A DNA stretch of 40,057 nucleotides from Vulcanisaeta sp. (GTDB lineage: Archaea > Thermoproteota > Thermoprotei > Thermoproteales > Thermocladiaceae): assembly GCA_022014875.1 (NCBI GenBank), contig JAKMAE010000002.1, positions 1-40,057 on the forward strand, written 5' to 3'. The translations under genes and the position numbers were made by a program. The notes under the pieces are model-generated. The model was given only the letters and a program-made list of their open reading frames with translations, was not told the DNA's origin and ran no database searches. Positions 4,991 through 10,098 of the stretch are shown here, piece after piece (the first letter of the stretch is position 1; the number at the start of each line of letters is the position of its first letter).

Positions 4991-5034
4991 GGGGTTGACT
5001 CGGTTCACTCAAAAAACGTAAACAATTGGGGGAA

Positions 5035-5463
5035 ATGATCGCCCAAACCTTACCCGGGTACGGGAGTAGGGAGAAAAGCGCATTGGTGTATGGGATACAC
5101 GTGTATGGAAACTTATATGGTTGCGACAAGGAACTACTCAAAGACGAGATCTACCTAACAAAGGTGGTTCGGGAGGCGGCCGAAGTCGCAGGCGCAACTG
5201 TGGTGTCGACCTTTTACTACAAATTTGGGGTCCATGGCGGTGTGTCTGTGGTGGCTATAGTTGCCGAGAGCCACATATCAATACACACATGGCCCGAGTA
5301 TGGCTATGCAACGGTTGATGTGTACACTTGCGGTAGCCACACGAAACCCATGGAGGCATTTAAATACATAGTTAAGAACCTTAAGGCCAGTAGGTACGAG
5401 GTCTTTACGTCAGATCGGTCATACTACGTAGATGGTAAGGTCGAGGGTGATACCGTGAGTTGA
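5035..5463 (+). CDS. Pyruvoyl-dependent AdoMet/arginine decarboxylase proenzyme
   Basis: This is a 142-residue proenzyme of the archaeal and bacterial short AdoMetDC family (SpeH type). It self-cleaves at the Glu-Ser bond in AESHISIHTWPE (Ser79 from this start) to create the pyruvoyl cofactor. The downstream Cys in VYTCG and the conserved His residues are present. In Crenarchaea a close paralogue has become an arginine decarboxylase feeding the agmatine route to polyamines, and the two differ subtly. Sequence reading alone does not separate them, so no gene symbol is given. An in-frame TTG at 5026 is an alternative start, but the ATG has the better-placed G-rich ribosome-binding run. Confidence 0.85.
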   Translation: MIAQTLPGYGSREKSALVYGIHVYGNLYGCDKELLKDEIYLTKVVREAAEVAGATVVSTFYYKFGVHGGVSVVAIVAESHISIHTWPEYGYATVDVYTCGSHTKPMEAFKYIVKNLKASRYEVFTSDRSYYVDGKVEGDTVS

Positions 5464-5481
5464 ATACTGCTTTACCACATT

Positions 5482-5520
5482 TCTTCTCAAAATCATAACT
5501 TTTTCTATTTTATATTTTTA
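5482..5520. terminator. T-rich intergenic terminator region
   Basis: The short gap between the convergent decarboxylase and ATPase genes holds three T runs (CTTTTTCTATTTTATATTTTTA). Archaeal polymerase terminates at such oligo-T tracts without a strong hairpin. It probably ends the plus-strand transcript. Confidence 0.5.
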
Positions 5521-7602
5521 GTAATTCCTCAGGAACTCCCTCACCACGTAAAGCCTGGCTAAATGTATCGGTCTTACCCCCTGTCTAATAACCAACGCCC
5601 TGTAACGACCACTTAATAGCCAATCAACATCGTCATTACTAATACCGCTGATCATTGTTGATAAGTGCGAGACATATTGATAACCACCGGATAACGCAAT
5701 AATTACACCCATGTTCTCCAAAACACCTGGGTCTAGAACGTCCAGTGGTGGTTGAAGGAGTACTATCAACGCAACACCGAATTTCCTAACCTCCCTAACC
5801 AACCTAGTCAACACACCCTCAACACCCAACGCACGCAACTCGCTGGGTAGCCCGATCACGCTGTGCGCCTCATCAATGAGTATTATGTACCGCAGGGGAC
5901 AGGGCGGTACCTTACACGACGCAGCTGCCCTCTTAAACACGGTGAGGAGGATTAGGGTTGTTAAGTACCTATTTAATTCCTCGTGAACCACGTTACTCAT
6001 TACGAATACGACATCGTCATTGAGTAGGTCATCCACATTAATTGTATTTCCATGATCGTAGTAATTAATCAGTATTGCTAAGGAGTTGTATAGGTTGTAG
6101 TATGCCTCCCTAAGGATTGGGTCACTAGCTAGATCCTCCAGGTACTTAACGATATCGCCTATACTATTCACGTAGTTACCGCGAAGCAGCGCCATGCGAA
6201 GCAAAGCACCTTCTGGCCCCAACGACAATAAAGGGCTCATCATTCTTATGGCCTCGATGGTTACGTCCAAGTCCCTACTCACTACCTTAACCTCACCTAG
6301 ATCGACATCTCTAATCCTAATTAGCCTCGAAAGCATTCTGGCATGTCCGTGCGGGTCGATAATCACCACCCTAACCCGGTCACCCAACCTCCTCTTGACC
6401 TGGTAAACAATGCTCATGGCTAGGGTCGTCTTACCGGACCCGGTAGGCCCTATAATTAACATGTGCGGGCTCGACCCATGGAAAGACCAGTAAACATCAT
6501 TGCCGTCAATATCCTCGCCGATGATGGCCAGGCCCCCACCATCATCACTAATGTTTAGGAAGAATGGCGTGAATGCAACTAGGTCCAGCTCCATGGACCA
6601 GGCCTTGGTGTTGCCTATTGCTAGTACCTTCGATATTGATGGGGATGGTACCCACCTCCACTTAAACGATGCGTCAAAATCAATGGTACTCGCTAAGTAA
6701 ATTGAGTATGCACCTTCACCCCTTTGGATCCTCCTGACCGTATTCTCAAAATCCTTATACCTAATGAAGTACTTAACGTGCCTAAGCATTAGGAATTTGC
6801 CATAGGCATTGCTGGCCCTGTTCTTTATTCTCTCCGGCACGTCGTTATTGACCCATAATGTTAATACTACGTGAGCATTGGCTCGGCGAATCCTACCTGC
6901 GGTACTTAACGTCTCCATCCTTACCGTTGAATTATCAACAAGCCTCGTCGCCCGCATATCGCTTACAACCTCGTGATTAAGCCCCATTTTGACAACGAAC
7001 CTTTTACCCGCGTAATCAGCTATGGAGTATGCCAGGTAAAATAACGGTACTGCTGCAAGGACGTAAGCGGAAATCAGTATGAGAGGGGGAACTAACAGTA
7101 ATATGATGAAGGGCCTAGCAAACGATCTCGACGTAACACGCATCCTCATGGCATTTGCAAGCTCAAAACCGCTTATCCTACGCACGACTATACCCAACCT
7201 GGTTAGTTCAGGCATTATACTGCCCCATGCCTTTTCGTCAATACCGATTATGTAGTCCCTGGGCGTTAATACGATGAAGGCCCTATACTGAGCGAGGAGG
7301 TTTATTAACGCTCGCCCCCTCGCAAGTGCCTCCTCAAATGATTGGGAAGCTGTTATGGGTGTTGATAGCACCTTAAGGCCGATTACCCTTTTACCATCAA
7401 TTTCAATGCCCGATAGGCTCATCTTCACGTACCTAACCGGCTCGCCATTGTTCAGTAATATGCGGATAACATCCCTATTTTCCACCAAGTCCTTAATCAA
7501 CACTAAAGGCACCAATACGTTTATGACCACTAGGTATATCCTATGGTCTACGAAGTAGGTTATGGCGAGGATTATCGATGAAACAATGAGTTTAGTCCTC
7601 AC
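5518..7602 (-). CDS. Membrane-anchored HerA/VirB4-like ATPase
   Basis: The product has 694 residues. Hydrophobic segments cover residues about 1-36 and 155-190, so it is probably anchored by four helices with a cytosolic region between. The C-terminal half is a HerA/FtsK/VirB4-superfamily motor: Walker A GPTGSGKTT near residue 386, DPHGHA after the next strand, and Walker B ILIDEAH near 575. Membrane-tethered hexameric ATPases of this kind pump DNA or protein across membranes. CedB of the crenarchaeal DNA-import system is one example. The gene overlaps the upstream HerA-like gene by 11 bases, so the two are translated together. Whether it is a CedB/TedB relative, a TraG-like coupling protein or something else needs a profile search. 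Confidence 0.75.
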   Translation of the reverse strand: MRTKLIVSSIILAITYFVDHRIYLVVINVLVPLVLIKDLVENRDVIRILLNNGEPVRYVKMSLSGIEIDGKRVIGLKVLSTPITASQSFEEALARGRALINLLAQYRAFIVLTPRDYIIGIDEKAWGSIMPELTRLGIVVRRISGFELANAMRMRVTSRSFARPFIILLLVPPLILISAYVLAAVPLFYLAYSIADYAGKRFVVKMGLNHEVVSDMRATRLVDNSTVRMETLSTAGRIRRANAHVVLTLWVNNDVPERIKNRASNAYGKFLMLRHVKYFIRYKDFENTVRRIQRGEGAYSIYLASTIDFDASFKWRWVPSPSISKVLAIGNTKAWSMELDLVAFTPFFLNISDDGGGLAIIGEDIDGNDVYWSFHGSSPHMLIIGPTGSGKTTLAMSIVYQVKRRLGDRVRVVIIDPHGHARMLSRLIRIRDVDLGEVKVVSRDLDVTIEAIRMMSPLLSLGPEGALLRMALLRGNYVNSIGDIVKYLEDLASDPILREAYYNLYNSLAILINYYDHGNTINVDDLLNDDVVFVMSNVVHEELNRYLTTLILLTVFKRAAASCKVPPCPLRYIILIDEAHSVIGLPSELRALGVEGVLTRLVREVRKFGVALIVLLQPPLDVLDPGVLENMGVIIALSGGYQYVSHLSTMISGISNDDVDWLLSGRYRALVIRQGVRPIHLARLYVVREFLRNY

Positions 7603-9304
7603 CCATGATCACCCTAGACAGCAAACCCATGTACTCAGGGTCGCCCTTCATTGCTAATTCAATCAATGATTTAACGTCATAGCCAAGCTTATTACCTAGG
7701 TCCAGGACCTGGGGCAATATTACGGGGTCGAGCGCCCTACCGAACCTCTTCACCATAGCCCTCACATAATCAATGTCGTGCGCCCTATCGAGCATTTTCT
7801 CATAAATCGCCCTGGAAATCCTTGCGTAGTCGTAATTATCATTATTGAGTAAGTACGCCTTAACGGTGAAGTCCAAGTCATGGTAATAAAACTCGAGCGG
7901 TCTCAACCTAATGAGGTCCTCAGCATTAACCCCAACTAGGCTCGAGGCCTCCATCGAGGACTTACCATTCAGTTTAAATACGGCGTAGTGACCAACTATG
8001 TCGAGGACGTTACGCTTAATATCGAGCGGGTTCTGGGTTATTAATATGAACGTTATGTTATCGTGCCTACCCTCCCTGATTAGTTTTTCAATTATTGTCT
8101 CACCAACAACGTACTTACCAAGGATTCTGTGAGCCTCGTCAATCACGACCAAAGCATTCCTCAATCTACCCCTTATCATCTCTAGGAAGGTGAGTATGAA
8201 CACTATGCTTGCCGCCTGCGATAGGTAATAAAGCGGTGCCGTGTTGATGATTAATAACCGAGATTTAAGCGCATCATTACTTATAGCAGTCCTCATGAGC
8301 GCCTTCACCATCAACCTCCTTATCCTCCTCCTCACCGCAGCTATGGCGTTTAGATAATCATTCCTTCTGTATTCCTGCTCGAGATCGGTCAATACCCGGT
8401 ATAGATCGTGTATGTCATTGCTGGCTAATCTTTCGAGGGCCTTCTCCAGGATCTCCAGTTGTATGAATGAGAATCCCTCATTATCCTCGTTGTATATGTA
8501 CGAGGCTGCTTGGACCGCGACCGCGAGCAGCTCGCTCGCCCTGTGCCTAGGCAGGGCTAGGGGGTTAACGGCAATGTCTACGCCGGGCACGGCCACGTAA
8601 CCACGTCCCGCAAAGAATAGCGAGTACTCGCCAGTCATGTCGAATATCACTACCTTATTGAATGAACCCCTAGTCAACGCTGTGTTTACGACGTTCCTAA
8701 CCAACGTGGTCTTGCCGGAACCTGTGCTGCCAAGAACGATTAGGTGCCTCCTCATGTCGATGTCTATCGGGTAGTACCTAGTCATGACCATACTGCCCGG
8801 CGGTGGCGATGGCCTAAGCAGTGCGTCTATGTTTCTCCTAAGTAGTGAAATAGGGGCCTTCCTACTGCACGATAGTACATCCATGCCTGAACCGCCCGAC
8901 CCCCTGAGGAATAGTGAGTATGAAATTGTGGTGTTGCCTAGGCCGCATAGGGTCAGGACCTTCGCCACGTTTGTCTCGATTTGAGGTATGTCGTTTATAC
9001 GTACCTCTGTGAATTGTGTTGATACGTTATTAATAATGCTCAGCGTTACCCCCGTCGGTAAAGGCTCCAGGTAATCCCGCCAGGCGTTTAATGCCTGCAT
9101 TATGTACTCCCTATGTAGGCCTTCGAGCAATGGTACGTGGCGTGGTGTATGTAGTAATACTAAGCCGACTTCGTCGATTATCGCCGTCATCCTAACTCCA
9201 CGTAGTGATTGGGCTACGTCCCATGCGTTAATGGGCTTCCTAACCCGAAGCCCAACCAGTAACTTACCACCCATCTTCACCAGGCCCGAGCTCAAGCTCT
9301 GCAT
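7592..9304 (-). CDS. HerA-like (DUF87) ATPase
   Basis: This 570-residue soluble protein has a divergent 180-residue N-terminal region, then a HerA-type motor: Walker A GSTGSGKTT near residue 192, FDMTGEY after strand two, Walker B VVIDEAH near 388, and LITQNP sensor sequence. HerA proteins translocate double-stranded DNA, usually with NurA in end resection, but no nurA lies here. Instead the gene is locked between a tiny hydrophobic protein (41-base overlap at its start) and a membrane-anchored ATPase (11-base overlap at its end). That suggests a membrane transport role rather than break repair. It could also be one of the many lineage-specific DUF87 ATPases of unknown job. Confidence 0.75.
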   Translation of the reverse strand: MQSLSSGLVKMGGKLLVGLRVRKPINAWDVAQSLRGVRMTAIIDEVGLVLLHTPRHVPLLEGLHREYIMQALNAWRDYLEPLPTGVTLSIINNVSTQFTEVRINDIPQIETNVAKVLTLCGLGNTTISYSLFLRGSGGSGMDVLSCSRKAPISLLRRNIDALLRPSPPPGSMVMTRYYPIDIDMRRHLIVLGSTGSGKTTLVRNVVNTALTRGSFNKVVIFDMTGEYSLFFAGRGYVAVPGVDIAVNPLALPRHRASELLAVAVQAASYIYNEDNEGFSFIQLEILEKALERLASNDIHDLYRVLTDLEQEYRRNDYLNAIAAVRRRIRRLMVKALMRTAISNDALKSRLLIINTAPLYYLSQAASIVFILTFLEMIRGRLRNALVVIDEAHRILGKYVVGETIIEKLIREGRHDNITFILITQNPLDIKRNVLDIVGHYAVFKLNGKSSMEASSLVGVNAEDLIRLRPLEFYYHDLDFTVKAYLLNNDNYDYARISRAIYEKMLDRAHDIDYVRAMVKRFGRALDPVILPQVLDLGNKLGYDVKSLIELAMKGDPEYMGLLSRVIMGED

Positions 9305-9416
9305 CGATTACCACCTCGAAGTCGCCATATTCATGCTCATATTGGCCTACGGCTTTGCTACGATTCCTCCACCCAGCTACTGCGCTGACCATCAACGCGA
9401 GGAGCCAGCGTTTCAT
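9264..9416 (-). CDS. Small hydrophobic protein heading the ATPase operon
   Basis: This is a 50-residue reading frame beginning MKRWLLALMVSAVAGW. It has one short membrane segment or signal (residues 3-15), then a polar, acidic tail. The ATG at 9416 sits about 26 bases after the TATA-like ATTAAATACG on this strand (9438-9447), exactly where a leaderless gene should start, and the frame runs into the start of the HerA-like gene. Promoter placement and coupling are the evidence; I recognise no family. It could be a membrane partner of the ATPases or merely a leader peptide for the operon. Confidence 0.5.
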   Translation of the reverse strand: MKRWLLALMVSAVAGWRNRSKAVGQYEHEYGDFEVVIDAELELGPGEDGW

Positions 9417-9437
9417 GTGTGCGGTATTACTATACAC

Positions 9438-9447
9438 GTATTTAATC
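9438..9447 (-). promoter_or_regulatory. TATA box of the HerA-like ATPase operon
   Basis: Read on the minus strand the element is ATTAAATACG. Its centre is 26 bases from 9416, the first base of the small ORF, and no other clear TATA box lies closer to the ATPase start at 9304. This places all three genes in one transcript. Confidence 0.5.
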
Positions 9448-9499
9448 AATACGGTTCATTAGAGAGCCGATGCACCCAGCCTGGTGTCCAGGCGGGACG

Positions 9500-10051
9500 T
9501 TATACGGCTTTAGTTCTAGACGTGCCCTGTAGGAAACGAAGCTTTCTACTCAATTTCTCACTACATACAGTGCAGAAACCTGGTCCCTTGTTGTCGGTAT
9601 CCTCCAACGTGTTGCTGAAATACATCACGCACCTCGGGTTGCTGCAGTGCTCAAGGCCGAATGCGTGGCCAAGCTCGTGCAGTACCTCCTTAAGGATTCT
9701 TTGATAATAAATGTTTGCATCGCCAACAAGCCTTTTCGTGAACACTACGGCCAGGCTACCCTCGATACGGGCCACGCCGAAGACGAAGTTTAGGCCTCTA
9801 ACATAGCCGTCGTCATTGATTATAAGCACAACCTTGTCAAAGCCCTCGTAATTCCTAACCCTGGGTTCTAGGTAGTCGAGTAGTTCGTCAGCCCTTACCT
9901 GGCCCCTCCTCACATCCCTGAACTGGGACTTTAGGCCCTCGAAATCCGTCTTCCTAACCTGAACCGTAACCATATTGCCTAGGTAATGCTCAACCCATCT
10001 AGGGAATTCACTAGGTAGGTCAACCTCGGTCAGTATCAACACCCTAACCAC
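9500..10051 (-). CDS. amzA: Archaemetzincin-type zinc metalloprotease
   Basis: The extended archaemetzincin motif is intact: HELGHAFGLEHC, a second Cys just before VMYFSN, and a C-terminal CTVC pair. The three His bind the catalytic zinc and Glu is the general base; four Cys form a structural zinc site. These are archaeal peptidases of unknown natural substrate. The longest frame starts at 10081, but a TATA-like element at about 10085-10097 predicts transcription from about 10065, and the family normally begins at the first strand (VRVLILTEV). The GTG at 10051 is therefore preferred; the ATG at 10069 is an alternative. A C/D sRNA lies immediately upstream on the same strand. Confidence 0.85.
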   Translation of the reverse strand: MVRVLILTEVDLPSEFPRWVEHYLGNMVTVQVRKTDFEGLKSQFRDVRRGQVRADELLDYLEPRVRNYEGFDKVVLIINDDGYVRGLNFVFGVARIEGSLAVVFTKRLVGDANIYYQRILKEVLHELGHAFGLEHCSNPRCVMYFSNTLEDTDNKGPGFCTVCSEKLSRKLRFLQGTSRTKAV

Positions 10052-10098
10052 TATGGAGCCACCAGGCATTTCATAGCCCATTGCTATTAAATTATTAC

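Follow-up and report, generated by a model that had tools for sequence, protein, structure and literature searches.

Can the motors of an archaeal DNA-transfer machine be kept by a genus apart from the pilus and the channel? This question is raised by a locus of Vulcanisaeta sp., a member of Thermoproteales, in a stretch of 40,057 nucleotides (positions 1 to 40,057 of contig JAKMAE010000002.1, assembly GCA_022014875.1), hereafter the window. In this locus, a small gene and two ATPase genes, P1 and P2, form a single conserved operon on the minus strand (Table 1). A preliminary description of the window proposed that a tiny membrane protein and two HerA/VirB4-like ATPases, one of them membrane-anchored, make up a machine for secretion, DNA transfer or envelope functions. 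I found that P1 and P2 resemble the two motor ATPases of the Ted system of Thermoproteales. With somewhat better than even confidence, I read them as a membrane-anchored two-motor DNA translocase of the Ted lineage that is fixed within a single genus and no longer coupled to pilus genes. The lineage, the gene order, the predicted membrane segments, the intact ATPase motifs and the conservation were shown by the analysis; I infer that P1 and P2 transport DNA.

P2 is well supported by profile comparisons as a TedB-like motor along nearly its whole length, not a generic HerA. Its hhalign comparison with a TedB set gave 99.9% (1.8e-35) over 515 columns, while Pfam and PDB searches found the shared ATPase core only. 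When separate groups were compared, the TedB variants scored top (216 and 169), against 102 for canonical HerA. The N-terminal domain alone also matched the pooled TedB set (97.0%, 9e-11), whereas HerA stood at 0.1% and the N-terminal domains of CedB and CedD, the ATPases of the related Ced system, were not detected in the same profile comparison. In ATPase-domain trees, P2 lies on the side of TedB and CedB (86-90/71-79) and joins TedB at 92/85, or at 83/65 after two rows were added. The preliminary description had suspected a CedB-type motor; the CedB/VirB4 side and the DNA-transfer ancestry hold, but P2 is nearer to TedB than to CedB. Its Walker B motif, IDEAH (residues 576-580), is conserved like Walker A in the 5 intact orthologues and in TedB.

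As the preliminary description supposed, one of the two ATPases is predicted to be membrane-anchored. This is P2, whose two hydrophobic segments are placed as in TedB. The TedB peaks lie at residues 10-19 and 162-197; those of Pyrobaculum calidifontis TedB lie at 55 and 208 because the start of its open reading frame (ORF) is over-extended. No comparable strong inner hydrophobic peak was found in the CedB and CedD examples. The motif R-I-Q-x-G-E follows the hydrophobic segments of P2, and its TedB counterparts are looser.

The second HerA-type motor of the operon is P1. It is well supported, by hhalign against the Ted HerA-like proteins (99.6%, 4.5e-24) and by the ATPase-domain tree, as a Ted HerA-like ATPase and hence, by lineage, as the matching partner of P2. 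In the tree, P1 and the HerA-like ATPases encoded at Ted loci form a clade (98/94), and canonical HerA and CedD lie elsewhere. P1 also matches Pfam DUF87 (2.3e-14) and the VirB4 model TIGR00929 (1.2e-12). Its Walker B motif IDEAH (residues 388-392) is nearly invariant in seven orthologues, and it carries N-terminal (residues ~1-180) and C-terminal extensions of its own. Thus, the possibility that both proteins match only generic DUF87 ATPases, which had been named as a weak point of the machine idea, does not apply, and profiles and trees alike bear out the DNA-transfer ancestry of the motors.

How does this pair compare with true Ted loci? According to PMC9905601, the Ted system of Thermoproteales consists of TedA, TedB and TedC together with HerA-like and ParA genes, and the Ted pilin of P. 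calidifontis is cleaved at AVA↓QA. Since a pilin with this site at residues 20-24 was found in one Pyrobaculum locus, the locus was taken as the P. calidifontis Ted locus; a seven-helix TedA follows the pilin. A Ted locus of Vulcanisaeta (L040) has the genes for a HerA-like ATPase, TedB and TedC in this order, and the first two overlap by 8 bases. Since P1 and P2 stand in the same overlapping order, they correspond to the two-gene motor unit of this locus but lack its pilus part. Unlike Ted, however, the pair has no TedC, TedA or ParA nearby, P1 has its extra parts, the operon begins with a small gene, and a single fixed chromosomal place replaces the scattered loci of Ted. Elsewhere in the genomes, TedB-like genes were found in 7 of 12 Vulcanisaeta genomes. 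At Ted-like loci of two genomes, putatively V. moutnovskia (L036) and V. distributa (L038), TedB is accompanied by ParA, a T2SSE ATPase and a two-helix TedC-like pilin; at L038 a HerA-like gene and a 1444-residue multi-helix protein are present as well.

Distinct TedB-side ATPase genes also occur in the Pyrobaculum group (L052 6479-10824, 749 residues including a 453-residue ATPase; L048 9093-10583, 496 residues). They form a branch beside P2 and TedB, and in L052 a second ATPase follows, and a pilin-like gene lies within a few kb. In contrast to the Vulcanisaeta operon, the second ATPase is very divergent, the gene order and the neighbours differ, and no small leading gene was seen at these loci.

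The likeness to the Ced system is more distant. In the Sulfolobales, CedB and CedD are both required for DNA import, as found in Saccharolobus (PMC11868833). Both systems have two HerA/VirB4-type ATPases of one DNA-transfer family, at least one of them membrane-anchored, but P1 and CedD do not cluster together, and neither CedA nor CedA1 is encoded nearby. P2 scored 50.7 bits with the CedB model (cut-off 700), and P1 scored 46.0 with the CedD model (cut-off 600), both far too low. Since these models match nearly every genome through the ATPase core alone, the Sulfolobales members of the two families were used as tree references only. The literature treats the TedB/CedB side as VirB4-like. P2 lies on this side and P1 matches TIGR00929, but the model match is partial and far under the cut-off, and no VirB2- or VirB6-like gene lies near the pair.

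P1 and P2 share the HerA/FtsK ATPase core with the HerA-NurA/Mre11-Rad50 repair module. The identity of either protein as the repair HerA was rejected: both lie outside the HerA clade, and their N-terminal domains stand at 0.1-0.2% against HerA. The canonical herA gene of the same genome lies in a herA-mre11-rad50 operon on another contig (L165 212-5777), where nurA was not seen; this contig begins 211 bases before herA. The earlier view that the pair falls outside the NurA-HerA model is therefore upheld.

Is this pair common in Thermoproteales? It is flanked by amzA (archaemetzincin, an M54 peptidase; 9500-10081) and speD (5026-5463), and nine further Vulcanisaeta genomes have the same flanks, so that all 10 genomes with a readable place agree, with the pair broken in one of them (G021). 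The set comprised 12 Vulcanisaeta genomes; of the other two, one has the gene cut by a contig edge (G023) and one is 54% complete (G022). Since the long ORFs of P1 and P2 are intact at 52-62% identity at the same place in several other genomes, they are not chance ORFs. Full-length P2 was not found in the seven other genera of the order or, beyond Vulcanisaeta, among 300 genomes drawn from the phylum; P1 was likewise not found outside Vulcanisaeta in a search of the order. Thus, the three-gene order is a trait of Vulcanisaeta (10 genomes), not one conserved across Thermoproteales, a point that the preliminary description had set as a check. No relatives were found in viral contigs scanned with the P2 and P1 profiles, or in plasmids searched by tblastn with P2. 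With a TedB profile, the viral contigs yielded four weak matches to the ATPase core, which were not used.

Some genomes have a damaged pair. In G021 (L046 9187-9885), a deletion of ~1.5 kb has removed residues 153-664 of P2, including the ATPase domain, and P1 is broken too. In the 99% complete genome G025 (L042 8321-10391), a frameshift near residue 65 divides P2, either through an error or as a real split. The frameshifts in G016, G017 and G020 are probably sequencing errors, since neighbouring housekeeping genes are affected as well.

The small leading gene encodes a real protein under purifying selection, as judged from its ORF, which stays open throughout the nine genomes compared and ends inside P1, and from the ratio of nonsynonymous to synonymous substitution rates (dN/dS) outside the P1 overlap (0.08-0.38 where finite, with one pair saturated). 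The conserved part is an acidic C-terminus, (D/N)VELELE; its conservation is partly shared with P1 because the stretch overlaps the start of P1. The preliminary description called this a tiny membrane protein. A gene of about 50 codons is real, but its membrane nature is not borne out: the best 19-residue hydropathy is 0.07-0.73 among nine orthologues, with no conserved transmembrane stretch, and the weakly hydrophobic N-terminus lacks its short hydrophobic start in two relatives. An alternative TTG start is possible at 9449.

The three overlapping minus-strand ORFs were confirmed when their coordinates were re-read, with overlaps of 41 bases (small gene and P1) and 11 bases (P1 and P2). The TATA box noted earlier ahead of the operon was also found, and a similar AT-rich box lies upstream of the operon in most relatives. 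Leaderless transcripts are common in Thermoproteota. Since the downstream end of the box is ~23 bases ahead of the first ATG, the operon mRNA is probably leaderless. Further upstream lies an inverted repeat that is possibly an operator. Its pattern has a single match in the window, and the repeat stays upstream of the operon even where a methylase gene has displaced amzA. A wider regulon is not clear, as the pattern has 17 matches in 12 genomes (7 for a reversed control), 6 of the 17 at the operon.

Table 1. Features of the P1-P2 operon and its upstream region (positions in the window).
Feature	Position	Strand	Remarks
Small gene (P0003)	9264..9416	minus	50 residues; ATG start; first in operon
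P1	7592..9304	minus	570 residues; ATG start; HerA/FtsK-superfamily ATPase, Ted HerA-like branch
P1 Walker A, GSTGSGKT	8708..8731	minus	residues 192-199; nearly invariant in 7 orthologues
P2	5518..7602	minus	694 residues; GTG start; TedB-like (VirB4/CedB-side), predicted membrane-anchored motor
P2 first hydrophobic segment	7483..7590	minus	residues ~5-40; Kyte-Doolittle peak at residue 22 (2.31)
P2 second hydrophobic segment	7009..7119	minus	residues ~162-198; Kyte-Doolittle peak at residue 165 (2.65)
P2 Walker A, GPTGSGKT	6427..6450	minus	residues 385-392; kept in all 5 intact orthologues; common to TedB
TATA-like box, TTAAATA	9439..9445	minus	AT-rich; ~26 bases ahead of the ATG of the small gene; from sequence and relatives
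Putative operator-like inverted repeat, CACC-N6-GGTG(CATC)	9469..9486	minus	upstream of the TATA-like box; similar sequence upstream in 9 genomes

Several observations weigh against a Ted-lineage translocase. The branch support for P2 beside TedB is moderate, so that this placement is consistent rather than strong, and residues 1-180 of P1 have no match to the N-terminal domains of the other families compared. AlphaFold gave no confident structure for either protein (mean predicted local distance difference test score of 37 for P2 and 42 for P1). The loss of the P2 ATPase domain in G021 indicates that the system can be dispensable. TedB was not detected in several genomes that bear the pair, all of them incomplete, and the genome of the window holds only a remnant of TedB, the last 38 residues (L190 11087-11260). 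The neighbours of the pair are housekeeping genes, and in none of the genomes is it linked to a gene for a pilin, a channel, ParA or a relaxase-like protein. The co-occurring membrane or pilus partner named among the checks of the preliminary description is thus not borne out at the locus itself, but in the genus as a whole TedB does co-occur. Near the TedB remnant, at a contig end, a CRISPR-repeat-like 24-mer occurs twice, and the remnant is either what is left of a Ted locus or an artefact of the metagenome-assembled genome. Neither TedC nor TedA was found in this genome, which is 80% complete.

What else could the pair be? P1 and P2 might be spare or auxiliary motors of Ted itself, paralogues that act in trans with the TedC pilus and the TedA channel of another locus, much as CedD supplements CedB. 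The presence of TedB in over half of the Vulcanisaeta genomes and the joint need for CedB and CedD in Saccharolobus make this possible, but it is doubtful, as in the genome of the window no Ted pilin and only a remnant of TedB were found, and as the pair is unlinked to Ted and more regular in the genus than Ted. Another thought is a pump that handles the cell's own chromosome at the membrane, in the manner of FtsK/SpoIIIE or the repair HerA, and moves no DNA between cells. The FtsK-HerA superfamily membership of both proteins, the fixed, housekeeping-like locus and the lack of an envelope partner would fit. However, a canonical HerA is already encoded in this genome next to Mre11 and Rad50, the N-terminal domain of P2 is TedB-like, the pair was not found in the other genera, and G021 has partly lost it, all of which makes such a pump decidedly unlikely.

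A defence module against viruses or plasmids, in which DNA-translocating ATPases work near a DNA methylase, was also weighed. The best defence match of both ATPases in PADLOC is mad8 (5.2e-25 and 1.7e-21). A mad2-like methylase gene of ~524 codons (4.7e-23) lies between amzA and the operon in two genomes (L035 6210-7784, L037 5504-7075). Since mad8 also matches true TedB and a Ted HerA-like protein, this is a match at the level of the fold. Neither the window nor four other loci contain the methylase. Around the pair, no nuclease, no further Mad gene and no gene set of a MADS or HerA-type defence system was found, and the locus does not vary in the way of a defence island; defence is thus very improbable. 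The methylase copies appear to be broken in G016 and G017, and perhaps in G021. Equally hard to believe is that a Ted-like element once integrated here is decaying and has left the pair as a remnant without present function. Such a remnant would account for the missing pilus genes, the deletion in G021 and the frameshift in G025, but not for the invariant ATPase motifs, the long co-linear ORFs that several genomes keep intact or the purifying selection on the 50-codon gene.

Under the favoured reading of a Ted-lineage translocase, P2 would be a TedB-like ring ATPase at the cytoplasmic face of the membrane, held there by its two hydrophobic segments. P1, extended at both ends, may work with P2, both perhaps as hexamers or other rings, and the ~50-residue protein, small and conserved, may be a subunit that assists the motors or their assembly. 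The motors would use ATP to move DNA through or along the membrane for DNA exchange or recombination repair, feeding a Ted pilus or channel from another locus, or else a different membrane channel. Since the Sulfolobales need both CedB and CedD (PMC11868833), a two-motor DNA pump is reasonable. A bolder version, which I consider rather unlikely, is a self-standing membrane DNA pump: once the conjugation-like apparatus had been lost or had turned optional, two motors of the Ted lineage and the small subunit would have been kept in one genus as a core chromosomal system, which moves DNA with no pilus or VirB6-type channel of its own.

In the literature searched, which excludes most subscription journals, no publication describing the pair was found, although PMC9905601, available in part, may draw it as a distal Ted component.

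What would such a pair mean? Ced and Ted are interpreted as tamed conjugation machines that serve DNA exchange. A fixed pair of motors from the Ted lineage, apart from the pilus and the channel, would demonstrate that such motors can persist alone. Moreover, the operon would offer a three-gene target for studying the direction of DNA movement, the pairing of TedB-type motors and the contribution of the HerA-like partner.

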